Below, piece by piece: positions 13,510 through 51,800 of a DNA stretch of 64,000 nt. Under the pieces are notes generated by a model, which did not search any database, was not told the DNA's origin, and worked only from the letters and a program-made list of their open reading frames with translations. How positions within the stretch are numbered: position 1 is the stretch's first letter; the number at the start of each line of letters is the position of its first letter. The position numbers were made by a program, and so were the translations under genes. Source of the DNA: an uncultured Prevotellaceae bacterium (GTDB lineage Bacteria > Bacteroidota > Bacteroidia > Bacteroidales > Bacteroidaceae); NCBI GenBank assembly GCA_902771785.1, contig CACXYH010000002.1, forward strand, positions 1 through 64,000, read 5' to 3'.

Positions 13510-13551
13510 GAATTTAAACTATTATTCCTCGAATTTTAGTTAATATTCCAA
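13510..13551. repeat. AT-rich 21-bp palindromic tandem repeat, two units
   Basis: Two adjacent 21-nt units (13510-13530 and 13531-13551) of the form GAATTTtAgnTAAnATTCCnn. The same unit occurs three times at 38426-38488 and once at 35242-35262, each time upstream of a promoter. Confidence 0.65.
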
Positions 13552-13637
13552 GAATAATAAGCCCATCTGATGCTTCCTTATTCGTAACTCTGGCTTCGTC
13601 GAAGTTTCTTCGTATCGGCAAAAAAAGGAAGAATTCT

Positions 13638-13668
13638 TTTGGTATGCTCCCGACTTTTCGTAACTTTG
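13638..13668 (+). promoter_or_regulatory. Distal promoter upstream of the plus-strand GH95 gene
   Basis: TTTG at 13638-13641, exactly 19 nt, then TAACTTTG at 13661-13668. The 339-bp gap 13443-13781 otherwise holds the 21-bp repeats and the proximal promoter. Confidence 0.65.
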
Positions 13669-13724
13669 CCACTCTGTGTGGCGAACTTACTCGACACTCG
13701 GAAGAAAAAAACAAATGTGTTTGT

Positions 13725-13755
13725 TTTGTTCTTCGCTCGTTTATTCGTAATTTTG
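13725..13755 (+). promoter_or_regulatory. Proximal promoter of the plus-strand GH95 gene
   Basis: TTTG at 13725-13728, exactly 19 nt, then TAATTTTG at 13748-13755. It lies inside the longer reading frame starting at 13644, so translation must begin after it, at 13782. Confidence 0.7.
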
Positions 13756-13781
13756 CAGGCAAAACTAAAGACTACGAAACT

Positions 13782-16124
13782 ATGATGAAACGAATTCTTT
13801 TGCTGACGCTGGGCGTACTGACAGCAGGGCTGACGGCTCTGGCCGACGGACAACTGCCTATGCGGCTGTGGTACGAACGGCCTGCTGAGTACTTCGAGGA
13901 GTCGCTGCCCATTGGCAACGGCAAGCTGGGAGCACTCGTCTATGGAGGTACTGACACCTGTCTGGTACAGCTGAACGACATTACGCTGTGGACGGGCAAG
14001 CCCGTCGACCGCAACCTGGACCGCCAGGCACATGAGTGGATACCGCGCATTCGCGAGGCGCTGTTCAACGAGGACTACCGGCTGGCCGACTCGCTGCAGC
14101 TGCACGTGCAGGGCCCCAACTCGCAGTTCTACCAGCCCTTAGGCGAACTGAGGATTATCTCGACGACGAAGACGACAGGCACAAGCAACTACCGGCGCGA
14201 GCTGAACCTCGACTCGGCAATCGTGAGCGACCGCTTCACTTGCGACGGCGGCAGCACGGCGCGCGAGTTCTTTGCCTCGGCTCCCGACAAGGTGATAGCC
14301 ATCCGGCTGCGCGGCCGCATCGACTGCCAGCTGCAGCTGTCGTCGCTGGTACCCCACGAGGTGAAGGCCACGGCCGCCCAGCTCACGATGACGGGCCACG
14401 CTACGGGCCCGGCCACGGAGAGCATCCACTTCTGCACGATGCTGAAGGTGCAGACCGACGGACAGGTGGAGGCCGGCGAGGCGTCGCTCAACATCAGCCA
14501 CGCTACGGAGGCTATCATCTACATCGTCAACGAAACCAGCTTCAACGGCTTCGACCGCCACCCCGTGAGCGAGGGGGCTCCCTACATAGAGCATGCTGCC
14601 AACGACCTATGGCACCTGCAGAACCTGAGCTACGACGAGCTGCGCAGCCGACACGTGGCCGACTACAGGCAGTACTACGACCGCCTGCACCTGACGCTGG
14701 GCAAGCCGACGCAAGCCGAGATGGAACGGCCCACCGCACAGCTGCTGAGAAACTACAAGGGCGACTCGCGCTATCTGGAGACGCTCTACTTCCAGTACGG
14801 ACGCTACCTGCTCATCGCGTCGAGCCGCACGCCAGGCGTACCCGCCAACCTGCAGGGGCTCTGGGCCCCTCACCTCTGGTCGCCCTGGCGCGGCAACTAC
14901 ACGGTGAACATCAACCTGGAGGAGAACTACTGGCCGGCCTTCGTGACCAACCTGGCCGAGATGGCGACACCGCTCGACGACTTCGTGGCCGCGCTGGCTG
15001 AGAACGGACAGCACACGGCACGCAACTACTACGGCATCGGCCGCGGATGGTGCAGCAGCCACAACAGCGACATCTGGGCCATGACCAACCCCGTGGGAGA
15101 GAAGAACGAGAAGCCTGAATGGGCCAACTGGAACCTGGGCGGCGCGTGGCTCGTGCAGACGCTGTGGCAACGCTACCTCTTCACGCAGGATGCCGACTAC
15201 TTGAAGCGGGTCTATCCGCTACTGAAGGGAGCGGCCGACTTCTGCCTCGACTGGCTCGTGGAGCGGAACGGCGAGCTCATCACCGCGCCCAGCACCTCGC
15301 CTGAGAACGAATACGTGACGGACCGCGGCTACCACGGAATGACCTGCTACGGCGGAACGGCCGACCTGGCCATCATTCGCGAACTGCTGCTCAACATGGT
15401 GGAGGCAGGCACCCTGTGCGGCGACGACGTGGCTCCCTACCGCGAAGTTCTCGCCCGCCTGCATCCCTACACCATCGGCAAGGACGGCGACCTGAACGAA
15501 TGGTACTACGACTGGCGCGACTACGACCCGCACCACCGGCACCAGAGCCACCTCATCGGCCTCTATCCGGGCAACCATATCAAGGAGGAGGCGCTGCTGA
15601 AAGCCTGCGAGCAGACGCTCCTACAGAAGGGCGACCAGACCACGGGCTGGAGCACAGGCTGGCGCATCAACCTCTGGGCTCGCCTGAAGAAGGCCGACCA
15701 GGCGTTCCACATCTACGAGAAGCTGCTCACCTACGTCTCGCCCGACAACTACAAAGGCCCCGACCGACGCCACTCGGGCGGCACCTACCCCAACCTGTTC
15801 GACGCTCATCCGCCCTTCCAGATCGACGGCAACTTCGGCGGAACGGCCGGTGTCTGCGAGATGCTCCTGCAGAGCCAATGCAGCGGGCAGCAGCCCCACG
15901 CCACCATCGAGCTGCTGCCCGCCCTGCCCACCGCATGGAGCGAGGGCAGCGTGAGCGGCCTCTGCGCCCGCGGAGGCTTCGAGGTGAGCATGGAGTGGGC
16001 GGCAGGTCAAGTAACGAAAGCGACGGTGCGCGCGAAGAAAAGCGGCACCGTCACCCTCCTATATAATCATAAGGTGAAGACGCTGAAGCTGAAAGCCGGA
16101 CAGACGAAGCAGGTCAAAGGCTAA
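13782..16124 (+). CDS. GH95 family glycoside hydrolase (alpha-L-fucosidase/alpha-L-galactosidase type)
   Basis: A secreted GH95 enzyme of 780 residues that removes terminal alpha-L-fucose or alpha-L-galactose. After a signal peptide (MMKRILLLTLGVLTAGLTALA) comes the N-terminal beta-domain (LPIGNGKLGALVYGG), then the (alpha/alpha)6 barrel with family motifs YTVNINLEENYW, APSTSPENEY, HHRHQSHLIGLYPGN and [12 protein letters not shown]. An upstream frame start at 13644 is rejected because a promoter lies after it and the signal peptide begins at 13782 or 13785. It converges on another GH95 gene with a 23-bp gap. Which sugar is removed cannot be decided here. Confidence 0.88.
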   Translation: MMKRILLLTLGVLTAGLTALADGQLPMRLWYERPAEYFEESLPIGNGKLGALVYGGTDTCLVQLNDITLWTGKPVDRNLDRQAHEWIPRIREALFNEDYRLADSLQLHVQGPNSQFYQPLGELRIISTTKTTGTSNYRRELNLDSAIVSDRFTCDGGSTAREFFASAPDKVIAIRLRGRIDCQLQLSSLVPHEVKATAAQLTMTGHATGPATESIHFCTMLKVQTDGQVEAGEASLNISHATEAIIYIVNETSFNGFDRHPVSEGAPYIEHAANDLWHLQNLSYDELRSRHVADYRQYYDRLHLTLGKPTQAEMERPTAQLLRNYKGDSRYLETLYFQYGRYLLIASSRTPGVPANLQGLWAPHLWSPWRGNYTVNINLEENYWPAFVTNLAEMATPLDDFVAALAENGQHTARNYYGIGRGWCSSHNSDIWAMTNPVGEKNEKPEWANWNLGGAWLVQTLWQRYLFTQDADYLKRVYPLLKGAADFCLDWLVERNGELITAPSTSPENEYVTDRGYHGMTCYGGTADLAIIRELLLNMVEAGTLCGDDVAPYREVLARLHPYTIGKDGDLNEWYYDWRDYDPHHRHQSHLIGLYPGNHIKEEALLKACEQTLLQKGDQTTGWSTGWRINLWARLKKADQAFHIYEKLLTYVSPDNYKGPDRRHSGGTYPNLFDAHPPFQIDGNFGGTAGVCEMLLQSQCSGQQPHATIELLPALPTAWSEGSVSGLCARGGFEVSMEWAAGQVTKATVRAKKSGTVTLLYNHKVKTLKLKAGQTKQVKG

Positions 16125-16147
16125 GGCTGCGTGAGGCTTCGCGCTTC

Positions 16148-18628
16148 TTATTGTATCACGTAGGTCTTCCCTGCCTCGGTCTTCAGGTCGTAGAGGTAGG
16201 TCTTCCTCAGCGCGGGCTGGCCCATTTGGGCCTCGCTGCTGATGACGGGCCGCGGCGTCTGGGCCAGCTGGAAGAGGGGGTTCGGGTTCACGCCCTTGGC
16301 AGCCTTGAGCCCTTTGGCCTTGAGCGGCTTGTAGGAACGCAGGCGCAGGTTGCCGCCCAGCTTCGAGCGGACGACGGTCTTCGTGGGCTGACCACCCTTC
16401 CACTCCATGTCTACCTCGAAGCCTCCGCGGGCCACCAGACCCTTGACGCTACCCTCGCTCCACGCAGCGGGCAGGGCGGGCAGCAGGAATACGAAGCCGT
16501 CGTGGCTCTGCAGGAGCATCTCGGCAATGCCTGCCGTGCAGCCGAAGTTGCCGTCGATCTGGAAAGGCGGATGAGCGTCGAACAGGTTAGGATAGGTGCC
16601 GCCCCGCTGCTTCACCGTTCCAAAGATGAGGAACGTGTCGGCCGTCAAGGTCAGTTGGTCCTTGATGAGCTTCAAGGCGTGCTCGCCGTCGAGGAAGCGA
16701 GCCCATGAACACACTTTCCACCCCATGCTCCATCCTGTCGACACATCGCCACGAGCCGTGAGCGACGTGCGTGCGGCCTGCCACAGCTCCGGCGTGCGGT
16801 AGGGCGATATCTGGTTCGAGGGGTAGAGCCCGTAGAGATGGGAGAAGTGGCGATGGTTGTCTTTGGGGTTGTCGACATCCTCGAGCCACTCCTGCAGCTG
16901 TCCCCAGCGGCCTATCTGCATCGGGGGGAGCGAGGCTATGAGCGACGCGAAGGAAGCGGCGGGCTGAGTGCCGGCGTCGACAGGCTGGCCGAGGGTCTTT
17001 GCTGCCATCTGCACCTCGTTGAAGAGTTCGAAGAGTATCTGGTTGTCCATCGTCACGCCGGCATCGATGCAGGCGCCGCGGCCCTGCGCCGCATTCTCGG
17101 GCGACACGCCTGGGCACACCACGCTATAGCCATACTTGGGATGCTTCACCAGCGTCTGCTCGAAGAAGCGGGCGGCCTCGCGCATGGTGGGGAACACCTG
17201 GCGCAGGAAGTCCTTGTCGCCCGTATAGAGGTAGTGCTCCCACAGGTGGCGGCAGAGCCAGGCGGCTCCCGTCTGCCACATGCCGCTCGAGGCACGGTCG
17301 ACGGGCCCCGTGATGCGCCACTGGTCGGTGTTATGGTGCAGCACCCAGCCGTCGGCGCCATACATGTCGCGTGCGGTCTGGCGTCCCGTCTGGCTCACCT
17401 CGCCGATGAGTCGGAACAGGGGGCCGTTCAGCTCTGTGAGGTTCGTCGCCTCCGAGGGCCAGTAGTTCATCTCGAGGTTGATGTTGGTGGTGTACTTCGA
17501 GTCCCACGAGGGGAAGAGCTTCTCGTTCCAGATGCCCTGCAGGTTGGCAGGGTTCATGTTGTCGGGCTGCGACGAGCTGATGAGCAGGTAGCGTCCGAAC
17601 TGGAAGTAGGTGGCCACGAGATAGTTGTCGGCGGCCGAGGCAAACTGCTCCACGCGTTTGCTGGTGGGCAGCTGCGGATAGCGGTCGCCACCCAGTTGCA
17701 GGCTCACGCGGTCGTAATACTTCCTGTAGGCAGCGATGTGGTCGGCCCGCAGCTGGGCGTAGCCCTTCTGCATGGCTCGCTGCAGGCGTTGTGACGACTG
17801 GCTGACTTCGTCGCCCGTGATGTCGTTGTAGCTGACGACGTTGGTGCCTACTGCCAGATAGAGCGTAGCCTCGTCGGCTCCCTTGACCGATACTTGTCCG
17901 TCGGCTCCGTCCACCTGTCCGCCTTTGGCGTCGACCGCCATTCGTCCCATGAAGCGCACCTTGCCCTTCAGGTTCTCGTGCTTCGAGCTGACGCCGGTCA
18001 GGTAGGCGGTAGCTGGGGCTTCGGTTCCCGTCAGCACGTTCTCGTGGGGCGACGTCATCGAGGCCGTGAACGAGAGCATGCCTGGACGCGAGGCCGAGAG
18101 ATGGAGCACCACCACCTTGTTGCCGTCGAGCGGGGCGAAGACCTCGCGCCGATACTCCACGCCGTCGACCTCGTAGCGCGTCACGGCCAGCGCCTCGCCC
18201 AGCAGCAGCTCGCGCTCGTAGCGACTGTAGCGGGCGTGGCCGGGCATGGCCACGTAGACGTCGCCGAAGGGCTGGTAGGGCATGCCGCAGTTCTTGCCGG
18301 CGCCCACGGGCATCAGCTTCTCGGTGGCCAGGTCCTGCGCCTCCTTGTAGCGTCCTTCGAAGATGAGCTGGCGCACCTTGGGCAGGTATTCCTTGGCTTC
18401 AGGGTTGACGACCTGGTTGGGCTGTCCGGCCCATATCGTCTCCTCGTTCACCTGCAGATGCTCTACGGCCGGTGTGCCGAAGACCATTGCGCCCATGGTG
18501 CCGTTGCCCACGGGCAGCGCCTGGGTCCACGTCTGGGCGGGACGGGTGTAGTGCAGACGATAGTCCTGCGCCCTGGCGGGTAGCAGGGTCAAGGCGAGGA
18601 GCGCCGTGATGAGGGTTGCTTTCTTCAT
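16148..18628 (-). CDS. GH95 family glycoside hydrolase, second copy
   Basis: A secreted 826-residue GH95 enzyme with signal peptide [20 protein letters not shown]. The domain order matches the plus-strand neighbour: beta-domain with [14 protein letters not shown], then the helical barrel with [40 protein letters not shown] and [15 protein letters not shown]. The two paralogues differ throughout, so they are old duplicates or independent acquisitions that probably act on different linkages. It follows the STN-esterase gene after 31 bp and is probably co-transcribed with it. Confidence 0.88.
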
Positions 18629-18659
18629 AGCTTCTGTATTGGGGGTGTGTGGATGGGGG

Positions 18660-19961
18660 CTATAGTTTCGTTCGCAGCTGGTCCTCGGTCTCGAGCGTCA
18701 CCTTGCTTTCGTCGATCATCGAGCGGTCGAGGCCGAACACGTCGGCAAAGAAATCGTAGACGGCCTGTCGCTTCGAGGGGCCGAAGTCGTGGCGCTCGGC
18801 GGGCAGATGCACGTTACGCACCTTGTCGGCGGCGCCGTAGAACGAGAAGATGCGCTTGATGAAGGGGAATTCCAGCTCGGGCGTGGTCGACGTCCAGTCG
18901 CCTCCGTCGCTCACCAGGAGCAGGGGCTGCGGGGCTATGAGCGCTGCCAGCTCGGCCTCGCAGGTGCCGCCGCCAGCCAGCTGTACGGGCATTCCGCTCT
19001 CGCAGGGGCAGCCGCCGTCGAAGTGGGAAGCCACGTGAACGACGGGAGCCGAGCAGGTGATGCGGCGGTCGAGCAGGGCCAGCAGCACGGTGTGGGTTCC
19101 TCCGCCGCTGCCGCCGTTGGCGGCCACGCGGGTGGTGTCAATCTCCTTGGCGCGGTTGGTCAGCATCCAGTCGAGCAGCTTCAGTCCGCAGGCGGCCTGA
19201 TAGATGTGGGCACGGGCCGAGTGATGGTCGCCCACTTCCTCCTTCGACTGCGAGTAGCCGTAGAGGTCGAAGTCTACGCAGATGGCTCCCATGCGGGCCA
19301 GCGTGGCCAGACGCTGCTGCTCGTCGTCGCGATAGCGCGAGGGCCAGTGGCCGTCGGGGCATACGATGAGCGGCTTGTGCCCCTTCTTCAGCGACGTGTA
19401 GATGGTGCCGAAGACGTGCTGGCCGGGCGTAAGCTCCAGGCAGATGTTCTGCGTGGTGTAGCCGTCGTGCTTGCGAACCTTCGAGAGGATGGGCTTCCCG
19501 CCCTTGACGCACGAGTCGAGAAACGAGTCGATCTCCAGCCGCTGGCGCACTTCCCTGCGCAGCACCTCGCGGCGCTGCTCCCACTCGGCCTTGTCCGAGT
19601 ACTTCTTCGCGAGCCAGTCGAGCATCTGGCGACCCTCGTCCTCGTGGCGGCGCGGATATTCGTAGAGCTTAATCTTATAGAGGTTGCCCGTCTGCTTCCA
19701 CCAGTTCCAGTCGAAGTGCTTGCAGATGTTGTCGAGTGTCTGCTCGAGCGAGTAGGGCCTGATGCGGAAGTCGGCATAGGTCAGCTGCACGCCCGCCGTG
19801 TCGACGTTGGCGTCGAACTTGAACCTGACGCCGAAGCGCTGGGCCACATCCTTCATCACTTCGCTCACGGGCCGACTGTACTTCGTGGCGTATGTCTGTG
19901 CCTGAGCGCCCACCGAGGCCAGCAATCCAATGGCGAGCCCCAACAAATAACCTTTCTTCAT
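18660..19961 (-). CDS. STN-domain/alpha-beta hydrolase fusion (putative carbohydrate esterase)
   Basis: A 433-residue secreted protein. Residues 1-22 are a signal peptide. Residues about 30-100 look like an STN (secretin/TonB N-terminal) domain, with [19 protein letters not shown] and [10 protein letters not shown]. Residues about 150-433 form an alpha/beta hydrolase like acetyl-xylan esterases, with nucleophile motif GGSGG (Ser285), an acidic residue in SDGGDW (Asp352 or Asp355) and the histidine in ERHDFG (His391). STN domains normally sit on outer-membrane receptors or secretins, so the fusion is odd. It probably deacetylates the glycan handled by the GH95 enzyme downstream. Function is inferred. 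Confidence 0.72.
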
Positions 19962-20087
19962 TGTTCTGATACCTTATTTATATTAGGACTGCTGAAGCCG
20001 CGAAATGTCGTCATTCCTGCCGAAGCTGCATGCAGGAGGGTGGCCGAAAAGGAGTTGCCGACGCTGGAAAACTTATCGTTGACGGCC

Positions 20088-20165
20088 GTCAACCATATTG
20101 CCGACTGCTGTCAACCATATCGCTGACTCCAGTCAACCATATCGCCGACTGCAGTCAACCATAGC
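20088..20165. repeat. 22-bp tandem repeat array A
   Basis: Units start at 20088, 20110, 20132 and 20154 (the last one partial), each beginning GTCAACCATA. Unit junctions form palindromes: GTTGACGGCCGTCAAC at 20079-20094 is a perfect 16-bp palindrome, and GACTGCAGTC spans the third junction. Confidence 0.85.
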
Positions 20166-20168
20166 ATA

Positions 20169-20345
20169 GGTGCCGCATGAAGGGTGCATAGGCGGCACTT
20201 CAACAACGGAGAAACGGCACCTCTTGTAGGCCGACGAGGCACCTTTAAGACGCAGAAGCGGCACCAACAGGAGCGAGAAGCGGCACCTCAAGAACGCCCG
20301 CACGGCACAAAAGGCCCGTCAAAGCGGCCCACAGGCCCTCAGAAC
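20169..20345. repeat. Degenerate ~22-bp-period repeat array B
   Basis: About seven imperfect units of 20-24 nt, each centred on GCGGCACC or a one- or two-base variant of it. The core AGAAGCGGCACC resembles the GAAGCGGCACTTC unit inside the gene at 48864-51923. Confidence 0.7.
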
Positions 20346-35241: not shown

Positions 35242-35307
35242 GAATAATAGCTAAAATTCTCGGTTTCATGTATGCTGTTCGGAAAATAAGATGTATCTTT
35301 GCAACAT
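35242..35307 (+). promoter_or_regulatory. Promoter region of the BspA-like gene, duplicated at murF
   Basis: One AT-rich 21-bp palindromic unit (35242-35262) is followed by TATCTTTG at 35294-35301. The stretch 35246-35307 matches 38472-38532 upstream of murF at roughly five bases in six, including the box and the GCAACAT after it. Confidence 0.65.
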
Positions 35308-35346: not shown

Positions 35347-37461
35347 ATGAAAAAGTATTGTCTTTTCGTAATCTTCATGCTTCTGTCTCAAATGGCCCAT
35401 GCCGTCAATGTTGAAATAGACAGTATTTGCTATAGCATCAACCTCAAGACTGGTGAAGCAGTTGTCGTTAGTAATTCTAATCACACTTACGTTAACGATA
35501 TTGTTATACCCGAAACAATTACCTATGAAGGTGTGCAGTATCAAGTATCGGCAATTGGTGACAGGGCTTTTTTCTGCTGCGACAGAGTTTCGTCGATAGC
35601 ATTGCCCCAAAGCATCCGATCTATCGGACAAGCCGCCTTTTACCAGTGCCATTTATTAGACTCTGTTTTCATACCCGAGCAGGTCAAAATATTAGAGACC
35701 GATGTGTTTGCAGGCTGTAAGAATCTAAGTCGTGTTGTCATGCCCGACGGAATAACCAGCATAGGCAATTCTGCCTTTAATGCCTGCCAAAGGCTAGACT
35801 CTCTGGTTCTTCCAAAAATGTTAGAGACTATCGAGGACTGGGCTTTTGCAGGATGCAGCCAGCTGAGCTATGTTGTAATCCCACCAAGCCTAAGTTACGT
35901 AGGTCAAGGGGCTTTTGGAAATTGCTATTCATTACAGGATGTGCAAATACCCGACCTTTCTTCATGGTGTAAGATTAAATTCAAGAATAACACAGCCAAC
36001 CCATTGGCTCTTTCTCACAAATTGGTAATCAATGACGAAGAAATTACCGACTTAGTCATCCCCGAGGATGTTACTGCCATCGGGAGCTATGCCTTCTGGG
36101 GATGCAGCAATATAGAATCTGTGACAATAGGCGAACAGGTTAGCAATATTGGGGATTGGGCTTTTGGAGCCTGTACAAAGATTTCATCCGTAACATGCTT
36201 TTCGCGCAAGGTTCCTGGTAGCAGCAACCTGTTCGACAAGAAGACTATCGAGAATGCTGTATTATATGTTGCAGCTTCTGTTTTCACCGACTACTCGAAT
36301 GCAGAGCCATGGAATTTTTTCAAAGAGATTCTCAAGATAGAGTTTCCCAAGCATGTCTTATCATATTACGTCGATGGCGTTTTGTACAAGACCTACACGA
36401 TGGAAGAAGGAGAGTACATTACACCAGAACCAGTTCCAACAAAGGAGGGCTACACCTTCTCAGGATGGAGCGACATTCCGAAAGTAATGCCGAAGCATGA
36501 CGTTTCAATCACTGGTACTTTCACATTGACAAGCATTCAGTTACTGTCTGGAGGTATTCAATACACACTGTGGGTAAAGCCCCAAACAGCCGATGTGTCT
36601 GGAATTGTTTTTGATGATATTAAAGCCTGTTCAGGGTGCTTGAGCATTCCGGCAACCATATCAAACGACGGTATCGAATATGCTGTCACACGAATTGCCG
36701 ATTCTGCCTTTGCAGCATACGACAGTTTGGTTTCTGTCACGATTCCAGAGAGCATTACAAGTATAGGCAAGGAAGCTTTCAATGGATGCATGCTTCAGAA
36801 TGTATCCGTAAGAAATGTGATGGCCGACATCGACGACAGCGCTTTTTCTCCTGCGACCTATAATCATGCCATGCTCTATATTCCTACAGGAAAGTGGATG
36901 GATGCGGTGTATAAAGGCTGCCTGTGGCGCTTTATGAATATTCGGGAAACCGCCACAGAAGCCCGTGAGCTGTCACCCCAAAAAGCATATACCCTAATGA
37001 ATGTGAACAGCTTTGGCTATCTTGTTTATGATGCAGTGAACGATGAAATGAAAACCATCAGCTCATATTATGACGTCGAAGAAACGTCACCTTACAATAG
37101 CTGGCAAATAGTTCACGAGAACGGCGTGTATAGCTTATACAACATTGGCGCCAAGAAATATGCCACGCAGAATTCAAAAGGCGAGTTTGTGCTCACGGAT
37201 AATCCCGCTGCGCTCAGCATGAAAGACGGGCTTAAAGGTATCATCATCGGTGATAATGCCCAGAAGCAGTGGAATTTCGTGCAAAATGATAAAATCAACG
37301 TCGATGAAAGTGTACTGGGTATTGAAACGCTGATGGGTGGTAAGAACGACACGCCTGCCACTTATCATCGACTTGATGGAACAAGAACAAATGGCTCACA
37401 GCAAGGAATCGTCATCATGAAGTTCAAGGATGGGCGCACCGTAAAAAGACTAAACAGATAG
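35347..37461 (+). CDS. BspA-like leucine-rich repeat surface protein with type IX-like C-terminal tail
   Basis: A 704-residue secreted protein: signal peptide MKKYCLFVIFMLLSQMAHA; LRR_5 (BspA-type) repeats at about 40-270 and again 430-500 (for example VTSIGxxAFxxC and SLVSVTIPESITSIGKEAF); an InlB/Flg_new-type beta module at about 340-400 (GYTFSGWSDIP); a lectin-like region at about 550-650; and an ending YHRLDGTRTNGSQQGIVIMKFKDG plus a basic tail, typical of type IX secretion sorting domains. Such proteins usually mediate adhesion. The gene is visibly more AT-rich than its neighbours, and a decayed copy of its 3' end lies downstream, both signs of turnover or transfer. Confidence 0.8.
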   Translation: MKKYCLFVIFMLLSQMAHAVNVEIDSICYSINLKTGEAVVVSNSNHTYVNDIVIPETITYEGVQYQVSAIGDRAFFCCDRVSSIALPQSIRSIGQAAFYQCHLLDSVFIPEQVKILETDVFAGCKNLSRVVMPDGITSIGNSAFNACQRLDSLVLPKMLETIEDWAFAGCSQLSYVVIPPSLSYVGQGAFGNCYSLQDVQIPDLSSWCKIKFKNNTANPLALSHKLVINDEEITDLVIPEDVTAIGSYAFWGCSNIESVTIGEQVSNIGDWAFGACTKISSVTCFSRKVPGSSNLFDKKTIENAVLYVAASVFTDYSNAEPWNFFKEILKIEFPKHVLSYYVDGVLYKTYTMEEGEYITPEPVPTKEGYTFSGWSDIPKVMPKHDVSITGTFTLTSIQLLSGGIQYTLWVKPQTADVSGIVFDDIKACSGCLSIPATISNDGIEYAVTRIADSAFAAYDSLVSVTIPESITSIGKEAFNGCMLQNVSVRNVMADIDDSAFSPATYNHAMLYIPTGKWMDAVYKGCLWRFMNIRETATEARELSPQKAYTLMNVNSFGYLVYDAVNDEMKTISSYYDVEETSPYNSWQIVHENGVYSLYNIGAKKYATQNSKGEFVLTDNPAALSMKDGLKGIIIGDNAQKQWNFVQNDKINVDESVLGIETLMGGKNDTPATYHRLDGTRTNGSQQGIVIMKFKDGRTVKRLNR

Positions 37462-37514: not shown

Positions 37515-37600
37515 GCATTTTGGCCCAAAACGCCGCGCGTTTTGGGCCAAAATAGTATCCGTTTTGGGCCAATTTGGAATGCGTTTTGGGCCAAAACGCA
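37515..37600. repeat. 22-bp tandem palindromic array C
   Basis: Four copies of a CGTTTTGGGCCAAAACG-like palindrome. The GGCCC/GGGCC centres start at 37522, 37544, 37566 and 37588, exactly 22 bp apart; the first is in the opposite orientation. It lies between the BspA-like gene and the decayed copy of its 3' end. Confidence 0.85.
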
Positions 37601-38425: not shown

Positions 38426-38488
38426 AAATTTAAGCTTAAATTCCTGGGATTTTAGCTAAAATTCCGAGAATTTAAGCTAAAATTTTTG
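38426..38488. repeat. AT-rich 21-bp palindromic tandem repeat, three units
   Basis: Units at 38426-38446, 38447-38467 and 38468-38488 share the palindrome ATTTTAGCTAAAAT or near variants; AGCT centres are exactly 21 bp apart. They end 30 bp upstream of the murF -7 box. Confidence 0.8.
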
Positions 38489-38518: not shown

Positions 38519-38526
38519 TACCTTTG
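38519..38526 (+). promoter_or_regulatory. -7 element for murF
   Basis: TACCTTTG, 23 nt before the start codon. The nearest TTTG (38503-38506) is only 12 nt upstream; TTG at 38493-38495 gives a 23-nt spacer. Confidence 0.65.
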
Positions 38527-38549: not shown

Positions 38550-39884
38550 ATGAACATTAAAGAGCTCTATAGCATCTACAAACAGCATCCCTGCATCACC
38601 ACAGACAGCCGCAACTGCCCCAAAAACAGCATCTTTCTGGCACTGAAAGGCGAGACCTTCGACGGCAACCAGTATGCCGCGCAGGCACTTGAGAAGGGAT
38701 GCGCCTACGCCATCGTCGACAACCCACAGGTGGTCGACGGCAGTCGGTATATCTTCGTGCAGGACTGCCTGCAGACGTTCAAGGACCTGGCTCGCGAGCA
38801 TCGCCGCCAGTTCAGCATTCCCGTCATAGGCATCACGGGCACCAACGGCAAGACCACCACCAAGGAACTCATCGCTGCCGTGCTCGGCGAGAAGTTCAAC
38901 GTGCTCTACACCGAGGGCAACTTCAACAACGACGTGGGCGTGCCGAAGACGCTGTTCCGCCTCACGAAGGAACACGAGATTGCCGTCGTAGAGATGGGAG
39001 CCAGCCATCCGGGCGACATCAAGACGCTGGCCGAGACGGCCGAACCTACGTGCGGACTGATTACCAACGTGGGCCGCGCCCACCTGCAGGGCTTCGGCTC
39101 GTTCGAGGGAGTCATCAAGACAAAGTGCGAGCTCTACGACTTCCTGCGCACACGCGAAGACGCGCTCATCTTCATCAATGCCGACAACGACTACCTGATT
39201 GACCAGATTGGCGACGACGAGGAGATATGGCTCTCGCCCTACTCTACCGACCCCGACAAGCAGTACAGCTGCATCTCGGGCGAAGTCATCGAATGCAACC
39301 CCTTCCTGAAGTTCCGCTGGCGCGAACCGCTCATGACGCTCGAGGAGGAAGGACGCTCGACGAAATGGCACAAAGTGCAGACCCACCTCGTGGGAGCCTA
39401 TAACATTGACAACCTGCTGGCGGCCATCGCCGTAGGCATCAACTTCGGAGTAGACCGCAAGAAGATTTGCCACGCTCTGGAGAACTATGAGCCAACGAAC
39501 AACCGCTCGCAGCTCATGGTGACCGAGCACAACCGCCTCATCGTGGATGCCTACAACGCCAACCCGTCGAGCATGACGGCCGCGCTGCAGAACTTCCGCC
39601 TCATAGAGGCACCCCGCAAGATGGCCATCCTGGGCGACATGCGCGAACTGGGCGACGCATCGGCAGAGGAGCACCGGAAAATGGTGGACCTCATCGGCCA
39701 GTGCGGCATCGACGAGGTGTGGCTCGTGGGCAGCGAGTTCGGCAACACCGACTGCAGCTACCGCAAGTTCAACGACGTGGAGGAGGTGAAAGCCGCCATC
39801 GCCCAGCAACAGCCACGAGGCTACGAGATACTGATCAAAGGCTCCAACAGCACGAAGCTTTATCAGCTCCCGGAACTATTATAA
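38550..39884 (+). CDS. murF: UDP-N-acetylmuramoyl-tripeptide--D-alanyl-D-alanine ligase
   Basis: Adds D-Ala-D-Ala to the peptidoglycan precursor in the cytoplasm. The 444-residue protein has the Mur ligase order: N-terminal domain binding the UDP-precursor (TTDSRNCPKNSIFLALKGETFDG), central ATPase with the P-loop GITGTNGKTTTKE, VEMGASHPGDI and TNVGRAHLQGFGS, and the C-terminal domain with VDAYNANPSSM and LGDMRELG. It lies outside any dcw cluster, followed 10 bp later by a lipoprotein gene. Confidence 0.93.
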   Translation: MNIKELYSIYKQHPCITTDSRNCPKNSIFLALKGETFDGNQYAAQALEKGCAYAIVDNPQVVDGSRYIFVQDCLQTFKDLAREHRRQFSIPVIGITGTNGKTTTKELIAAVLGEKFNVLYTEGNFNNDVGVPKTLFRLTKEHEIAVVEMGASHPGDIKTLAETAEPTCGLITNVGRAHLQGFGSFEGVIKTKCELYDFLRTREDALIFINADNDYLIDQIGDDEEIWLSPYSTDPDKQYSCISGEVIECNPFLKFRWREPLMTLEEEGRSTKWHKVQTHLVGAYNIDNLLAAIAVGINFGVDRKKICHALENYEPTNNRSQLMVTEHNRLIVDAYNANPSSMTAALQNFRLIEAPRKMAILGDMRELGDASAEEHRKMVDLIGQCGIDEVWLVGSEFGNTDCSYRKFNDVEEVKAAIAQQQPRGYEILIKGSNSTKLYQLPELL

Positions 39885-43710: not shown

Positions 43711-43728
43711 CGTTGATATAGGTTCATT

Positions 43729-44943: not shown

Positions 44944-44965
44944 TGCAGCTTAGCCCATACAGAAA

Positions 44966-45007
44966 AACAAGACGGCAACCCAAGTAAGCTTGAGTTGCCG
45001 TCTTGTT
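44966..45007. terminator. Bidirectional terminator after sufS
   Basis: A long stem (AACAAGACGGCAAC pairing with GTTGCCGTCTTGTT, continued by a short inner stem) between converging genes, with short A- and T-runs. Confidence 0.85.
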
Positions 45008-45022
45008 GATAGTATATCCCCG

Positions 45023-45298
45023 CTACAGGGCAGCCTTGCACTTGAGCAGCGCGCTGACGAGCCAGGCGCCACAAACGACGCGCAGCGACAGCGCACAGTC
45101 GATGGGGAAGATGGTCATCAGGGCGGCCAGCTGCGCATTGAGCAGCAACAGCGTCTGCCGATTGTCGACGGGACGCTCCAGCACCCTGCTATAATAGCCC
45201 GACAGGCGCGTCAACGGACGGCGCACGACCTTGGCCAACTGCATCATTACCAACTCGAACTTCTGCTCACTCACGTTCATCATCATTTCGTTATTCAT
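45023..45298 (-). CDS. Small hydrophobic protein of unknown function
   Basis: A 91-residue protein with a polar, basic N-terminal half (about 1-45) and a hydrophobic C-terminal half with one or two possible membrane segments (about 49-65 and 70-86, including LLLLNAQLAALMTIF). An AAGAAG ribosome-binding site precedes the ATG. No family is recognised. It ends at a terminator shared with sufS, which supports it being a real gene; a TTATTTTG-like -7 box upstream is imperfect. Confidence 0.55.
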   Translation of the reverse strand: MNNEMMMNVSEQKFELVMMQLAKVVRRPLTRLSGYYSRVLERPVDNRQTLLLLNAQLAALMTIFPIDCALSLRVVCGAWLVSALLKCKAAL

Positions 45299-45473
45299 AT
45301 CTTCTTTGTTTTATTAGTTATTTGATTCTGGGTGCAAAATAACGAGTTTAGAGTGCACAATAGGTTCACAAACGAAACTTTTTGTGTTAAAAAACGCCGT
45401 TTTTGACAATCTTTAACGCATTTAAGCCCGTCAAGAGCCCTGCAACCCAACAGCACCTCACGCAAGTCAACGA

Positions 45474-45517
45474 GCGTTTTATGGCAAAACGGAGGGCGTT
45501 TTGTGGCAAAACGCAAA
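45474..45517. repeat. 22-bp tandem palindromic repeat D, two units
   Basis: GCGTTTTATGGCAAAACGGAGG followed by a second unit GCGTTTTGTGGCAAAACGC plus AAA. Units start at 45474 and 45496, exactly 22 bp apart, each with a GTTTT/AAAAC palindrome like array C. Confidence 0.7.
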
Positions 45518-45566
45518 ACAAAGAAAACGGTATTCTACTGAAAAAAGAGCCTATCTGCCGAAAATT

Positions 45567-45598
45567 TTTGCAGGTTTCGCAAAGATTTCGTACCTTTG
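45567..45598 (+). promoter_or_regulatory. Promoter of rnhB
   Basis: TTTG at 45567-45570, a 20-nt spacer and TACCTTTG at 45591-45598. Confidence 0.75.
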
Positions 45599-45622
45599 CT
45601 GCGTATTAATAACCACGTAACG

Positions 45623-46231
45623 ATGCTGAAAAGTCACTACTACGAGGGTCTCGTGGAGGCCGGATGCGACGAGGCAGGGCGCGGATGCCTGGCCGGAGCA
45701 GTCTATGCTGCCGCCGTGATTCTGCCGCCCGACTACCAGAACGAGCTGCTGAACGACTCGAAACAGCTCAGCGAACGGCAGCGCTACCAGCTGCGCGACA
45801 TCGTTGAGCGCGACGCCATCAGCTGGGCTGTGGGCATCGTCGGGCCCGAAGAAATAGACAAAATCAACATTCTGAACGCCTCGATTCTGGCCATGCACCG
45901 CGCGCTCGACGGCCTGCAGGTGAGGCCCGAGGCGGTGATCGTAGACGGCAACCGCTTCAAGAAGTACGGCCAACTGCCCCACACCACCATCGTGAAGGGC
46001 GACGGAAAGTACCTCTCGATAGCCGCCGCAAGCATCCTGGCCAAGACCTATCGCGACGACTACATGAACAAGCTGGCCGAGGAATACCCACAATACGACT
46101 GGCAACAGAACAAGGGATACCCCACCCGCAAGCACCGCGAGGCCATCCGGCAGTATGGCACCACGCCCTACCACCGCATGAGCTACAACCTGCTGGGCAC
46201 GGGAGAACTGAGCCTGGACTTCAAAGAATAA
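45623..46231 (+). CDS. rnhB: Ribonuclease HII
   Basis: Removes RNA from RNA-DNA hybrids and misincorporated ribonucleotides. The 202-residue protein has the family signature [15 protein letters not shown] with the first catalytic Asp-Glu pair, then [10 protein letters not shown] and [20 protein letters not shown] longer frame opens with a TTG that overlaps the promoter -7 box, so the ATG at 45623 is the real start. The WYL regulator gene follows after 8 bp and is probably co-transcribed. Confidence 0.93.
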
Positions 46232-46239
46232 CGACATAC

Positions 46240-47163
46240 ATGCGACACGACAAACTGGAACGCGAGCTGAACCTGCTGCTTCTGCTCACCGAGAACCACA
46301 ACTTTACGGTCAAGGACATCTGCGACCGCATGGGCATTTCGCGTCGCAACCTGTACTACTACCTGGAGTTCTTCCGGCTGGCGGGCTTCAAGGTAGAGAA
46401 CAACAAACCCTTCTACCGCATTCGCAAGGACTCGCCCTTCTTCCGCAAGCTCGACGAAACGGTGCACTTCACCGAGGACGAGGCCATCACCCTGCGCCGC
46501 ATTCTCGACAAGACCGGCGACGACAGCGCACAGGTGCAGCGACTCAAGCACAAGCTCGACAAGCTCTACGACCTGGACATACTGGACAATGTGGAGCTGA
46601 AAGAGCAGCAGGCCCACATCACCCGCCAACTCTACGACGCCATCAAGGGCCGACAGACGGTGATGCTCGTGGGCTACTCGTCGCCCCACAGCAACACCGT
46701 GAGCGACCGCATGGTGGAACCGTTTCTCTTCATGAACGGCAACCGCGAGATAAGATGCTACGAGGTGAAGTCGAAGATGAACAAGACATTCAAGCTATCG
46801 CGCATGCAAGACGTGCAGCTGCTCGACCTGCTGTGGAGCCACGAGCGCGAACACCGGCAGATGTTCACCGACGTGTTCATGTTCTCGGGCGAGCAGTGGC
46901 TGCCCATCGTGCTGCGCATGGGACGCCTCTCGGCCTCGGTGCTGCGCGAGGAATATCCGCAGACCGAACGCTACATGGAGCCCGACGGCGACAACCACTG
47001 GCTGCTGCACATGAACGTATGCTCGTATGTGGGCATCGGACGCTTCGTGCTGGGGCTGTATGACGACATCGAGGTGCTGGAGAGCAACGACTTCCGCGAC
47101 TACCTGCGGCAGAAAGTGGAGAACATGAGCAAGGACAGACAACAACAATTAATAACCCACTAA
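46240..47163 (+). CDS. WYL-domain transcriptional regulator
   Basis: A 307-residue protein with an N-terminal winged helix-turn-helix (about 10-65, including FTVKDICDRMGISRRNLYYYLEF) and a WYL ligand-binding domain (about 125-225), followed by a C-terminal WCX-like extension (about 230-300). WYL proteins sense nucleic-acid or nucleotide ligands and often control DNA-damage or defence genes. The target is unknown; nearest genes are rnhB upstream and a DUF4923 lipoprotein 13 bp downstream. Confidence 0.85.
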   Translation: MRHDKLERELNLLLLLTENHNFTVKDICDRMGISRRNLYYYLEFFRLAGFKVENNKPFYRIRKDSPFFRKLDETVHFTEDEAITLRRILDKTGDDSAQVQRLKHKLDKLYDLDILDNVELKEQQAHITRQLYDAIKGRQTVMLVGYSSPHSNTVSDRMVEPFLFMNGNREIRCYEVKSKMNKTFKLSRMQDVQLLDLLWSHEREHRQMFTDVFMFSGEQWLPIVLRMGRLSASVLREEYPQTERYMEPDGDNHWLLHMNVCSYVGIGRFVLGLYDDIEVLESNDFRDYLRQKVENMSKDRQQQLITH

Positions 47164-47176
47164 AACAACAACAACG

Positions 47177-47860
47177 ATGAAAACAAAGAAATTAGCAATC
47201 GTAGCAGCTGCTTCACTCATGCTGATGAGCTGCGGAACTGACTCACTCTCGATGCTGGGCGGCGTACTGGGCGCACAGCCGGGTAACCAAACCAGCACAC
47301 AGAACAGCGCCACGGGCAGCATTCTGGGCGACATCTTCTCGGCTGCCACCAGCGGACAGACCGTGGGCAACGTGCTGACGAGCGTACTGGGACTCGACAA
47401 AATGACGCAGAAAGACCTGATTGGCACGTGGAAATACAGCTCGCCGGGCTGTGCATTCACCAGCCAGCAGCTGCTGGCCCAAGCCGGCGGCGAGGTGGTA
47501 GCAACGCAAATCAAGACGAAGCTGCAGCCTACCTTCAACACCGTGGGCATCAATAGCTCGAACACCTACGTCACCTTCAATCAGGACGGAACCTTCACGG
47601 CCAGCATCGCCGGCAAGCAATGGAGCGGCAAATACACCTACGACGCTGCCACCAGCAAGGTGACGATGCAGGGACTGCTGCTCAACGTGAACTGCTATGC
47701 CAAGAAGAATGCCAGCGGAATAGGCCTGCTGTTCGAGGCATCGAAGCTGCTGACGGTGCTGAAAACAATGTCGGCTCTGAGCGGAAACACATCGCTTCAG
47801 ACCATTGGCGACCTGGCCGGCAACTACGACGGCGTGCGCATTGGCTTCGACATGAAGTAA
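47177..47860 (+). CDS. DUF4923 family lipoprotein
   Basis: A 227-residue protein with lipobox SLMLMSC (Cys19), a Gly/Ser/Thr-rich linker (about 20-75) and a beta-rich domain beginning DLIGTWKYSSPGCAF, consistent with DUF4923, a lipocalin-like family of Bacteroidales with unknown function. It follows the WYL regulator after 13 bp, so it may be part of the rnhB transcript. Confidence 0.8.
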   Translation: MKTKKLAIVAAASLMLMSCGTDSLSMLGGVLGAQPGNQTSTQNSATGSILGDIFSAATSGQTVGNVLTSVLGLDKMTQKDLIGTWKYSSPGCAFTSQQLLAQAGGEVVATQIKTKLQPTFNTVGINSSNTYVTFNQDGTFTASIAGKQWSGKYTYDAATSKVTMQGLLLNVNCYAKKNASGIGLLFEASKLLTVLKTMSALSGNTSLQTIGDLAGNYDGVRIGFDMK

Positions 47861-47869
47861 GCGGAAAGG

Positions 47870-48121
47870 CTAAACAGAAATTCTCAGTGAACGGGTGATG
47901 CGGCGCTTCAGTTGCATCACCTGTTCTTTTGTGAGCGAGGAGCACTCGTCGAGATGCAGCAGAATGTCGGTGGCCTTCAGGAAGGCATCGCGAATGGCAG
48001 GCGACGCATTCAGATACTGCGCCCAGCGACCGCCCTGGTCGGGCTCGCAGTCGAGCGTATAGCGAATGAAATCGTCGTTACACAGAAAGTCGTCAACGGT
48101 CATCAGTACCTGCATCTTCAA
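47870..48121 (-). CDS. Stand-alone FecR-like anti-sigma N-terminal domain (putative)
   Basis: An 83-residue soluble protein. The pattern DDFLCNDDFIRYTL, a W-x-x-Y/F-L stretch, a helix near A-F-L-K-A-T-D-I-L-L and the final EQVMQLKRRITRSL resembles the cytoplasmic sigma-binding domain at the start of FecR-type anti-sigma factors. There is no membrane segment or periplasmic domain, and the reading frame simply ends. It lies 62 bp downstream of an ECF sigma gene on the same strand, the place where an anti-sigma gene is normally found. The family call is by pattern only. Confidence 0.55.
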   Translation of the reverse strand: MKMQVLMTVDDFLCNDDFIRYTLDCEPDQGGRWAQYLNASPAIRDAFLKATDILLHLDECSSLTKEQVMQLKRRITRSLRISV

Positions 48122-48183
48122 GTGCTTTAAGTCAAACTTTACACTATAAAGACGCAGGAAGGGCGTGGCTGTAATCAGAAAGT

Positions 48184-48747
48184 TCAGATGATTTGTGCCG
48201 TCTCGCGCAGTTTCAGCATACCGCGATGCACGAGATTGCGCACGGAGTGATAGTTCATGTGCATGATTTGGCAGATGTCTTCGTATTTGCGCTGCTCCAG
48301 ATAGTAGAGCGTGATGGCCTGCCGTTGCCTGCGGGTGAGGCTCTTCATGAGGAAAGCCACCTGCTGTTGCTGCATGCTGGCATGCTCGCTGACGATGTAG
48401 TCGCGCTCAGTGTCGTCGGTAGAGCGGCGCGAGCTGTACTGCTCAATGGGGGTTTCAGAGGTGAACGTCTGCTTGCGGAACTCGTCGAGCAGCTTGTTCT
48501 TCAGGGAGATGACCAGATAAGAGCCCAGATTGCGGATGGCGTTCTGGTCGTTGCGCTTGGAGTAGACCTTGACGAAAACGTCGTGAATACAGTCTTTTAG
48601 CAGCTCGTAGTCGGCCGTCAGCCGGCTTCCGTAGTTGAAGAGAATGTGCACATACATATCGTACAACTGCGCGAAAGCCTGGTCGTCGCCAGCACAAAAA
48701 GCGGCCACTAATTGGGATGTCCGTTCCTTAAGACTTGTTTTCACCAT
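48184..48747 (-). CDS. ECF-type RNA polymerase sigma factor
   Basis: An extracytoplasmic-function sigma factor of 187 residues. Region 2 (AQLYDMYVHILFNYGSRLTADYELLKDCIHDVF has its conserved core DCIHDVFVKVY) and region 4 (LTRRQRQAITLYYLEQRKYEDI, then a helix-turn-helix) are both present. A longer frame starts at 48825, but it crosses the promoter and an upstream terminator; the ATG at 48747 follows the -7 box by 26 nt. Bacteroidales sigma factors of this kind pair with FecR-type anti-sigma factors to control SusC/D loci. It lies directly beyond the pectin locus. Confidence 0.88.
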   Translation of the reverse strand: MVKTSLKERTSQLVAAFCAGDDQAFAQLYDMYVHILFNYGSRLTADYELLKDCIHDVFVKVYSKRNDQNAIRNLGSYLVISLKNKLLDEFRKQTFTSETPIEQYSSRRSTDDTERDYIVSEHASMQQQQVAFLMKSLTRRQRQAITLYYLEQRKYEDICQIMHMNYHSVRNLVHRGMLKLRETAQII

Positions 48748-48773
48748 TTTTAGTAGTAAGTAGTTTCTGCTTG

Positions 48774-48804
48774 CAAAGTTAAATAAAATTCCGACAACAC
48801 CAAA
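48774..48804 (-). promoter_or_regulatory. Promoter of the ECF sigma gene
   Basis: On the minus strand TTTG at 48804-48801, exactly 19 nt, and TAACTTTG at 48781-48774. Confidence 0.8.
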
Positions 48805-48805
48805 C

Positions 48806-48852
48806 AAAAAGGCGAGGAAAATCACGAAATCGTTTGAGTTCCCTCGCCTTTT
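48806..48852 (-). terminator. Terminator at the end of the pectin locus
   Basis: On the minus strand AAAAGGCGAGG pairs with CCTCGCCTTTT around a 24-nt loop that holds a small inner hairpin, followed by a T-run. It separates the locus from the sigma promoter. Confidence 0.8.
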
Positions 48853-48863
48853 AGCACTAATTG

Positions 48864-51800
48864 TTATTTTTTCTTCAGCCAGAAGGCCCCTCGGCCCTCG
48901 ATGGTGGTCTGTCCTTTCACCTCGCGAAGCTTGACCGGACTGCTGTCTACCTTATATAATATATAGGTGCTTTGGTCGGGCAGACTCAGGCTGAGCGGCC
49001 CGGCGGTATCCTTATACCACAGCTGGGCGTCGGCACTGGTCATGGAGTAGCAGCCCTCGGTGGCGCTTTTCTGCGGCTGCATGGCTGCCACGCTGCGCAG
49101 GAAAGCAGCGTCGGTCACCTGCAGACTGGGGCACGAGCCGCCGGCCATGAGCACGGCCCAGGCCATTTCGGGATACTTCTGGGCGTAGTAGACCACGGCC
49201 TTGTCGGGGTACTGCCGCCGGTATTCCGACACGCCCCGATAGACATCGGCAAAGCGAGCCGAGCCTGTGCGGATTTTTCGCTGGTACTGTCGCGGCGCCA
49301 TGTTCACGCCTCCTTCAGGGGCATAGAGCCCTTTGTTGTGGTAGAACCACTGCTCAATGTCGATGATGTCGACGACTTTCGAGCGCTCAGGGTCTTGCAG
49401 AACGGCGTCCTGCACGTCCTTATTGACGCCGAGCGACACGAGCACGCGCTGGCCGTTGCGCTGCTCCCACTCGGCGATGCAGTCGAGCCAGAAGCGTACG
49501 AAGTGGAGCGGACCCGTGAACTCCTCGCCAATGGAGTGGATCACGTTGGGATGGTGCTTCAGCGCGTCGAGCGATTGCAGTATGTACTGGCGGTGAAGCT
49601 CGCGCAGCTTCGCGTTGCTGACGTCGTAGAACTGCTCGGCGGTGAAGATGCGCTTGTCGCCTGTAAAGGGCACAGGCTCCAGAAACTCCTCGTGGTTGAT
49701 GTTGTTGGCCGTGCGCCAAGGGCAGTCTACCCAGTGGGCACCGGCCTCCAGGATGTTGTGCTGGAAGTAGTGCTGGTTCATGAGCAGCAGCCCCTGACCG
49801 GCTCCCTTCGCGGCAAACTCGTTCAGACGGGCGAAGTACCAGCTGTTCAGTCGGGTGAGGTCGTAGCGCGAAAGGCCGTCCCAGGCATGGCCCTGGCCGC
49901 TGCGGGCGAAGGGTTGCTCATAGAAAGGTCCCCACACATCGCCGTTCTTGCGGCGCACGCGCTCGTGGTCGTCGCGGCGCCGGTCGTACCAAAGACCGTA
50001 GTTCTGGGCGTAGAGCAGGGTGTGGCTGGCAGCCATCTCGCTCACCACGGAGTCGATTCTGTCGGTCAGACCGCGCCCTTCGGCACCGGGAACGAAACGG
50101 GTCAGGGCATAGGTAGCCTTGCGGACAGCCGAGCTACTGAGGCGTCCGTTCCACCAAGGCGAGTTGTGTCGGCCACCCACCAGCAGGGTATTAGAGGCGG
50201 CATCAACGAGGCGGCCATCCTTGACGGCAGCCTCCATTGGAGCCGAAGCGGCACTTTGGCCATGCTGAAGCGGCACTTCGGCTGTGTCGAAGGGGCACTT
50301 CGACGATGCCGAAGCGGCACTTCGCCTATGCCGAAGGGGCACTTTGACCACGTCGAAGTTCCCCTTCGTCGAAGTCAATGCAGCATCCAGCCGGGCGCTG
50401 TCAATCCACTGCTCCATCGTGAGGCGCGGTTGCCAGGCCTCCTTGGCCAACTGCAGCGCCTCTTCGATGGTGGGACTGCTCGTGGCTCCGGTCTTGCGTT
50501 CGAGCACACGACACTGCTCCGCGACGTCGCGACCAAGGCGGTCGGACAGCTGCTTTTGGTAGATGCTCCAGGGATTCACGTGCTCGTTGGCCTGCTCGAT
50601 GATGCCATTGCCCTGGAACTGCGCCCAGCATCCGTAAGCCACGCAGACGGCATCGGAGTCGGGCGAATAGCACTCAATGCCCGAGGCGGTGCTCTGCCAG
50701 AGGGTGCTGTTGGCGGTGTTCCAGCCGGCGCCATACTTCTCTAACTCCAGATTACAGAAGCGAAGGTCGTTGCCATCGATGTTGACGCCATCGAAGAGCA
50801 GGCCGCTGGCCCACTGGCCAGTGCTGCCACTGAAGCCCAGAGACTCCTTGGTGTCGCAGCCCACAAAGGCATTCGGACCAGGCGCACAAGGGCCGGCCAC
50901 GAAGTCGTTGATGCCATACTCGGAGTAGCAGCGCTGGAAAAGGGTCTGCCCGCCCATGGTATAGAACGTGCGGCGACGCATGCCGCCCAGCTCTGAGACG
51001 GGCTCTTTCGAGATACAATCCTCAACGGTGATGCGCGAACCCGTAGGCTGAACGACGACGGCTGAGCCTGCGAAGTGGCGGAAGTTGACCATGCGCACCC
51101 AGCAGTCGCGGGCCGAAGCCACGTAGATGCCGTTCCAGCAGTGGTCTTCGTCCATGGGCAGACTGCGATTATAGTCGCTCTCGAGCGTCAGATTCTCCAC
51201 TCCCGAGTCGCTGATGCGGCCCGGCCACACATAGCGCAGCACCTTGGCTCCGCCCCAACGGGCGTCGAGGGCAGTAGTGATGGGGGCATTCAGGCTTCCA
51301 TCGGCCATGACAGTACGGTCCCAACGGATGTCGACGTCGCCGGCATGCCACGCCCAGTAGCCCAGGCGCGAGCCTCCGCCCCAGGTGTCGCAGCCCAGAT
51401 GCTTGACCCACGCAGCAGGCGACGGACGCCAGACGAGCACCTCGTCGCCGGCCTTCAGGGCCGCACTGACCTTCAAGGCGCCCACCTTCACATAGTCGTC
51501 GGCAATGCTGAGGGTGTCGGTGATACGGCGGTCGTTGCGTCCTTCGAGGTAGAGCAGTGCGCCACGGTCGGTGCCCAGCTTGCGAAGAACGGTCTGCTGC
51601 TTGCTGGTTCCACGCAGCACCACGCCCGAAGCACTGATGCGCAGGGGCTGAGAAAGCGTGAAGACGCCCTCGCCCAGCAGCACAGCACCGCGCAGGCCCG
51701 TCTGCTTGTCGGGCTTCAACGAGGCCACATAGTCGATAGCCTGCTGTATGCGCTCGCTATTGTCGCCATCCTTCCACTCGATATAGACCACGCTCATGAC

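Follow-up and report, generated by a model that had tools for sequence, protein, structure and literature searches.

Intergenic tandem arrays with a near-constant 22-bp step and varying sequence in a Prevotella-like genome, alongside a separate, promoter-linked class of AT-rich 21-bp palindromes

Our impression is that bacterial minisatellites have mostly been described sequence by sequence. The REP/BIME elements of enterobacteria are palindromic intergenic units that undergo local amplification, alternate in orientation and are linked to RAYT. Plasmid iterons are direct repeats about 22 bp (two helical turns) apart that are read by a protein at a single replication origin. The closest known system to the arrays reported here is the BrickBuilt minisatellite with its 23-nt unit. 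As far as the portions of the source cited here describe it, BrickBuilt of Porphyromonas gingivalis consists of tandem 23-nt units of one sequence family with a leader, a tail and IS5-like terminal repeats; the units are imperfect, spacer-less and intergenic, vary in copy number between strains and are predicted to form stem-loops, and 22-nt tandem repeats are mentioned in strain W83 (PMC4596501). PINSR of Prevotella intermedia and Prevotella nigrescens is, in the corresponding part of its description, a 188-bp dispersed unit (PMC4755523). Among the best-ranked matches in the open-access literature searched, none describes a class of palindromic 22-bp arrays in Prevotella or Bacteroides.

The DNA analysed here (the window) comprises the opening 64 kb of contig C2, from a Prevotella-like genome (3.29 Mb in 123 contigs, 97.8% complete), for which genes were called with a custom script. 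The original prediction had named a series of tandem arrays with a 21- or 22-bp period, all of which are present as judged by direct reading and TRF, and the class extends well beyond the window. The features concerned are as follows.

13509..13555, minus strand: two AT-rich 21-bp palindromic units and a partial one, upstream of a minus-strand M16 peptidase gene (TRF, direct reading)
20055..20163, no strand: 22-bp array of family A with a GACnnnnGTC core, between divergent genes (TRF)
20194..20308, no strand: six GGCAC sites with a 22-bp step and no clear palindrome (direct reading)
35242..35259, plus strand: lone AT-rich 21-bp palindromic unit, upstream of a BspA-type LRR gene at 35347
37518..37600, no strand: 22-bp array of family D, four units with a TTTTGnnnCAAAA core (TRF and direct reading)
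38426..38485, plus strand: three AT-rich 21-bp palindromic units, upstream of a Mur ligase gene at 38550 (TRF)
45474..45517, no strand: two family D-like units 22 bp apart (by eye; absent from the TRF list at score 30)
48864..51923, minus strand: DUF6298 gene (1019 aa); the family B array falls in a variable linker of its product, at about residues 517-560
50242..50370, no strand: six 22-bp family B units of the GAAGnnnnnCTTC type, in frame in the coding gene (TRF)

These loci had been considered unrelated, which holds only in part: 13510, 35242 and 38426 form one family, and 37515 and 45474 another. Palindromic units were found at most of the named loci, the exception being 20169-20345, where GGCAC sites lie 22 bp apart without an ordinary palindromic array. 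The sites, at 20194, 20216, 20238, 20260, 20282 and 20304, are separated by steps of exactly 22 bp and by strongly diverged sequence. GGCCC at 20326 keeps the step, off-step GGCCC is present at 20313 and 20334 too, and TRF listed only 20238-20293 from this region, with 75% matches. Arrays related to the family A array at 20055..20163 were found on other contigs. The family B units within the DUF6298 gene read GAAG, a centre of [CG]GG[AC]A or its reverse complement, and then CTTC. In the DUF6298 orthologues compared (L030-L034, L039 and L040) the linker region is shorter and diverged, and the peptide encoded by the array has matches at 16 other places in the genome among the matches scored. One orthologue (L030, from G007) has a low-complexity stretch of its own, RDSKDSRGSRDSRE, at the linker position of the array. 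The Mur ligase at 38550, presumably MurF-like, shares up to 81% identity with proteins of uncultured Prevotella, many of them ruminant-derived. Elsewhere in the window, at 13644-18628, two adjoining GH95 genes, both encoding 826 aa, point in opposite directions.

To place the window in its genome, we used a sample of 860 kb that was partly selected by hits (contigs C1, C7, C24, C42, C48, C61 and several others). Within it, 17 stretches (340 kb) were repeat-blind, and all else was partly picked via earlier hits. Because part of the 860 kb was chosen where earlier searches matched, the figures from the 340 kb are the fair ones. Here, 21 of 35 intergenic tandem arrays had a period of 22, three had 21 and none had 23 (TRF, score 50), compared with six arrays of all periods together, one of them of 22 bp, in three pooled shuffles of the same sample. 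The window together with 20 stretches (464 kb) contained 31 non-overlapping 22-bp arrays, nine of 21, one of 23 and one of 20 bp, out of 107 TRF arrays with a period of up to 30; counting by lag yielded 31 runs at 22, seven at 21 and none at 23, and one order-2 shuffled copy had no lag-22 run. In the 860 kb, intergenic arrays numbered 59 at period 22, eight at 21, one at 23, two at 20 and one at 24. With coding arrays included there were 60 at 22 bp, 15 at 21 and one at 23, the single non-intergenic period-22 array being the one in frame within the DUF6298 gene. Seven coding period-21 arrays, which are in-frame protein repeats, were left out before families were counted. Arrays of 21-23 bp are present in 51 of the 211 intergenic gaps of at least 100 bp. 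The period distribution across the sampled part of the genome thus has a sharp peak at 22 bp relative to shuffles, as anticipated, and we reject chance or artefact as the origin on the basis of the shuffles and the repeat-blind sample. That the 22-letter step is near-constant while the letters vary by family suggests that something makes or reads DNA at such spacing.

The 69 arrays of the 860 kb sample fell into 21 consensus clusters, and for 51 of them a partner was found that was better than any for shuffled units. A shared period without a shared sequence had been proposed; the period is indeed shared, and so are sequences, since the arrays form recurring families within the genome. The arms of the main families are GAAG-n5-CTTC (family B), GATT-n9-AATC (C), GAC-n4-GTC (A) and TTTTG-n3-CAAAA (D). 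Dyad symmetry is a property of the 21-23 bp units as a group: the self reverse-complement match of their consensuses was 0.590 in this genome versus 0.510 after shuffling (41 units) and 0.579 versus 0.502 in relatives (86 units), scores reached by none of 300 shuffles in either set. A smaller dyad excess was seen in 14 units of 15-20 bp from this genome (p 0.003), and its three units of 11-14 bp gave p 0.02. No excess over shuffles was detected in the 51 units of 15-20 bp from relatives, or in units of 24-40 bp (18 units only, three from this genome and 15 from relatives). Conservation is concentrated in the arms of family C (1.3-1.8 bits, versus 0-0.5 in the spacer between units) and, with weaker contrast, in those of family B (0.9-1.8 bits versus 0.2-1.4 elsewhere), where several flanking positions are conserved too. 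Compensatory change at mirrored positions showed little beyond independence, with a small excess at a few central pairs of families A, C, D and F. It was dropped as proof of pairing, as most arm pairs show none beyond independence.

How firmly the step is held was assessed from neighbouring units. In six families, 166 neighbouring pairs differed by 834 substitutions and had no spacing other than 22. This set was drawn from TRF arrays by a gapless 22-column model, a procedure biased towards exact spacing. Because that model had shaped the set, the sequences were rescanned with the arm motifs only. In four families, 133 of 137 spacings were exactly 22 and the other four lay within 17-27, with 310 substitutions between neighbouring spacers. 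For comparison, intergenic DNA outside repeats at sister loci had 646 substitutions and 113 indels, a ratio of 0.175 that comes from 11 sister-locus pairs with some loci reused; it predicts about 146 indels for the 166-pair set and about 54 for the motif-only set. Length differences were observed as whole units: the sister-species loci L134 and L135 differ at one locus by one unit of 22 bp, and L073 has one 21-bp unit more than L060, L065 and L070. At L082 and L084, GACTTAAGTC-cored arrays lie upstream of the Mur ligase gene in both, with different spacers. Together these data show that the 22-bp arrays change by whole units and that the step is fixed at 22 while the letters drift. Of the common mechanism or reading protein that had been put forward, the spacing constraint is well supported by the locked step; no such protein was found.

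The main rival to a reading protein is a minisatellite born of replication and without any reader, in which hairpins and one-unit slippage or template switching would copy units and flip their centres, and the 22-bp length would be inherited or set by the mechanism. We regard this as possible, if somewhat doubtful. Consistent with it, four of the five families examined (B, C, G8 and D, but not F) have units that are less alike the farther apart they lie in an array, family B scoring 0.75 at lag 1 and 0.65 at lag 4, and sister species differ by whole units. With few exceptions the centres of family B read [CG]GG[AC]A in one orientation or the other, and 9 of 11 arrays contain both (a twelfth, L014, yielded no unit under the family model); in L017 the unit next after a family C unit is its exact inverse. 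However, the rarity of 1-bp indels amid drifting spacers is not readily explained in this way, and neither is the exact step of the six GGCAC sites at 20194-20308 despite their diverged letters.

The AT-rich 21-bp palindromes behave differently from the 22-bp arrays. The palindrome was found at 29 places with up to three mismatches, versus two for the reversed control. A TAnnTTTG box, which we take to be the Bacteroidetes -7 element, lies within 51 bp of 13 of 20 AT-rich loci, compared with a random rate of 0.176-0.189, and the remaining 7 have no such box nearby; this count leaves out the duplicates L239 (the same as L149) and L148 (the same as L240). With the three window loci that had given the idea removed, a box was near 10 of 17 (p 0.0002-0.0003). 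In the window, TATCTTTG at 13476-13469 on the minus strand lies 42 bp from the nearest dyad of the 13509..13555 array, TATCTTTG at 35294-35301 lies 43 bp from the dyad of the lone unit, and TACCTTTG at 38519-38526 lies 42 bp from the last dyad of the array before the Mur ligase gene. Dyad-to-box distances, taking the first box, were 11, 11, 16, 22, 22, 22, 28, 30, 30, 33, 42, 42, 43, 43, 55 and 56 bp; many are near 11, 22, 30-33 or 42-43, and 16, 28, 55 and 56 fit poorly. A test for a helical period in these distances is weak and suggestive only (p 0.034). In contrast, only 2 of 59 22-bp arrays lie near a -7 box where 9.4 were expected, and none of 300 random placements gave so low a number. 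The single array family of the original prediction is thereby replaced by two classes, AT-rich 21-bp units linked to promoters and 22-bp arrays that avoid -7 boxes. The AT-rich units are most likely operators. A dimeric DNA-binding protein is the candidate occupant of the units upstream of the -7 box, at a set of promoters. This class would represent a regulon without a name, with operators possibly placed helically, in poorly studied gut bacteria.

The 22-bp arrays show no clear preference for gene orientation (69 arrays, 860 kb), and together with their avoidance of promoters this fits neutral insertion of a minisatellite that nothing reads. The same context bears on whether the arrays work at the RNA level as tandem hairpins, that is, as terminators or 3' stabilisers, which we judge very unlikely. 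The units are self-complementary, and the arrays lie nearer to a stop codon (median 74 bp) than to a start (median 212 bp), as such a role would have it. But 26 of the 69 arrays sit between divergent genes, in tandem gene contexts the family strand runs with the gene direction in 10 cases and against it in 7 (a small sample, counted by hand with families pooled), and some palindromes have no loop (TTGACGGCCGTCAA). A search of four sources returned no Rfam match for the arrays, the sole match being a tRNA. A hairpin or terminator role is disfavoured, given no clear orientation bias in this small sample and no Rfam match for the arrays in those four sources.

Two kinds of mobilisation were considered. 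Many-copy, short, palindromic intergenic units resemble the REP/BIME type, which would be moved by RAYT, a Y1 transposase. This is scarcely plausible here: the Y1_Tnp profile (PF01797, E 0.001) matched nothing in this genome (G000, 97.8% complete), while it was found in 40 of 61 genomes of the phylum, this one included in the 61. As far as the assembly goes, RAYT mobilisation was rejected. Alternatively, the 22-bp arrays might be cargo of miniature mobile elements of a BrickBuilt-like kind and spread with them, which we consider improbable. At 8 loci of the sample, a family B-type array has a foldback element no more than 300 bp away (clusters 6, 7 and 8), and contig C12 contains two copies of a composite made of two arrays. 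Against this, the foldback is absent within 300 bp of 6 of the 12 cluster 7 (family B) arrays, among the A, C and D arrays it accompanies a single D array, in L162, which has a B array beside it, and the flank matches listed contain no common ends around A, C or D arrays.

The foldback element is about 80 bp long, with a conserved left end of GCCCGCGAAnAGATTTTTTTGT or similar, a right end of TTCGCC or similar, and 19-27 bp complementary arms flanking a TATATA loop; it matched 20 times in the genome, at 14 distinct places. Its arms differ among copies yet stay complementary (mean identity 0.37 over 105 pairs, in a set that takes in three unrelated hairpins). Copies in this genome are as follows.

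L171:1330-1420: foldback element copy
L019:10540-10625: foldback element copy
L159:7190-7340: foldback element copy
L160, L162, L164, L165 and L166: further foldback element copies

The composite on contig C12, at L020:148-314 and L020:14343-14496, consists of a family C array and then a 21-bp AGCGCC array, with a near-identical junction in both copies. Separately, the contig starts L018:1-95 and L020:1-95 are nearly identical over about 90 bp; this common start probably marks the border of a longer repeat at which the assembly was interrupted.

We further examined relatives. Across 80 Mur ligase loci (1.31 Mb) there were 71 intergenic arrays of 21-23 bp. Arrays of the 22-bp class with other sequences are patchily distributed in Prevotella-like, Bacteroidaceae and Parabacteroides genomes; none was found in 142 kb from other Bacteroidales families, two in 180 kb from other orders of the class, and none in 240 kb from other classes. 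Densities per 100 kb within the genus were as follows.

G017: 15.0 (15 of 15 intergenic arrays at 22)
G003: 8.6
G009: 5.0 (two in 40 kb)
G007: 5.0 (one in 20 kb, a heptamer multiple)
G006: 3.0
G016: 2.5
G020: 2.0
G004: 1.2
G010: 0 (20 kb)
G018: 0 (96 kb)

In the sparse genomes of the genus, some arrays lack the palindromic look. Relatives thus carry such arrays with whole units gained or lost, which does not refute the original prediction, although for some congeners the sampled stretches contained no array. Because congeners range from 15 per 100 kb (G017) to zero in 96 kb (G018), an essential role is unlikely. A second class of repeats, with a period of 7 or 14, is also common in several relatives (in 0.94 Mb, 42 intergenic arrays have the 7-bp period and 19 the 14-bp one), seen in the Mur ligase loci L058-L115 of Prevotella-like genomes and in stretches L056-L057 of G009.

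Our preferred account, held tentatively and at a little under even confidence, distinguishes two kinds of phased palindromes: the 21-bp predicted operators, and 22-bp minisatellites whose spacing may be selected by a dyad-symmetric reader. The 22-bp arrays would be a lineage-specific class of intergenic minisatellite that grows and shrinks by whole units. One dyad per 22-bp period implies a second dyad 11 bp away, so that dyads recur about once per helical turn, and by geometry dyads every 11 bp line up successive half-sites along one helical face. Such arrays may be bound cooperatively by a dyad-symmetric protein or oligomer, and cooperative occupancy could then select for spacing and half-sites. 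Because the half-sites differ, a single sequence-specific protein cannot read all families. HU-HIG proteins (PF18291) were considered as readers and are unsupported: neither correlation of their count with array density was significant (Spearman -0.26, p 0.06, n 50; +0.20, p 0.56, n 11), in counts that take in ordinary HU proteins and of which some low ones reflect incomplete genomes. The first 22 genomes had been encouraging; G018 then gave 30 matches and no array in 96 kb. The number of PF18291 matches differs widely, from 2 to 30, among related genomes (G018, G003, G111 and G114).

A broader proposal, which we think unlikely, is that Bacteroidaceae and their relatives carry chromosome-wide, satellite-like arrays of conserved geometry in which the letters turn over, and that a candidate protein or oligomer reads this geometry and organises intergenic DNA. 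What is constant across many families and several genomes is the length of the step, with substitutions tolerated freely and length change hardly. This offers a setting in which selection on DNA spacing instead of sequence, or a ruler-like process at that level, can be tested.

Compared with known systems, the arrays share with plasmid iterons a step of about 22 bp, or two helical turns, but where iterons sit at one origin, these arrays occur across the chromosome and belong to different families. They resemble REP/BIME in being short palindromic intergenic repeats, with dyad symmetry measured here, and differ from those longer, RAYT-linked units in that no RAYT was found in the genome. Going by the cited part of its description, PINSR is likewise present in many copies, intergenic, restricted to a lineage and without terminal inverted repeats, and is set apart as a dispersed 188-bp unit for which that part mentions no tandem 22-bp structure (PMC4755523). 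BrickBuilt, as far as it is described in the portions cited above, also consists of short, imperfect, spacer-less tandem units; these lie in intergenic DNA, as do 59 of the 60 period-22 arrays here, and its host is a related oral bacterium. At the flanks, where BrickBuilt has its leader and tail, a shared foldback element was seen here at 8 family B-type loci only. Finally, in contrast to the 23-nt unit given for BrickBuilt in those portions, this one genome has 21 clusters of units, nearly all with a 22- or 21-bp step, and 60 arrays at 22 bp against one at 23 (860 kb).
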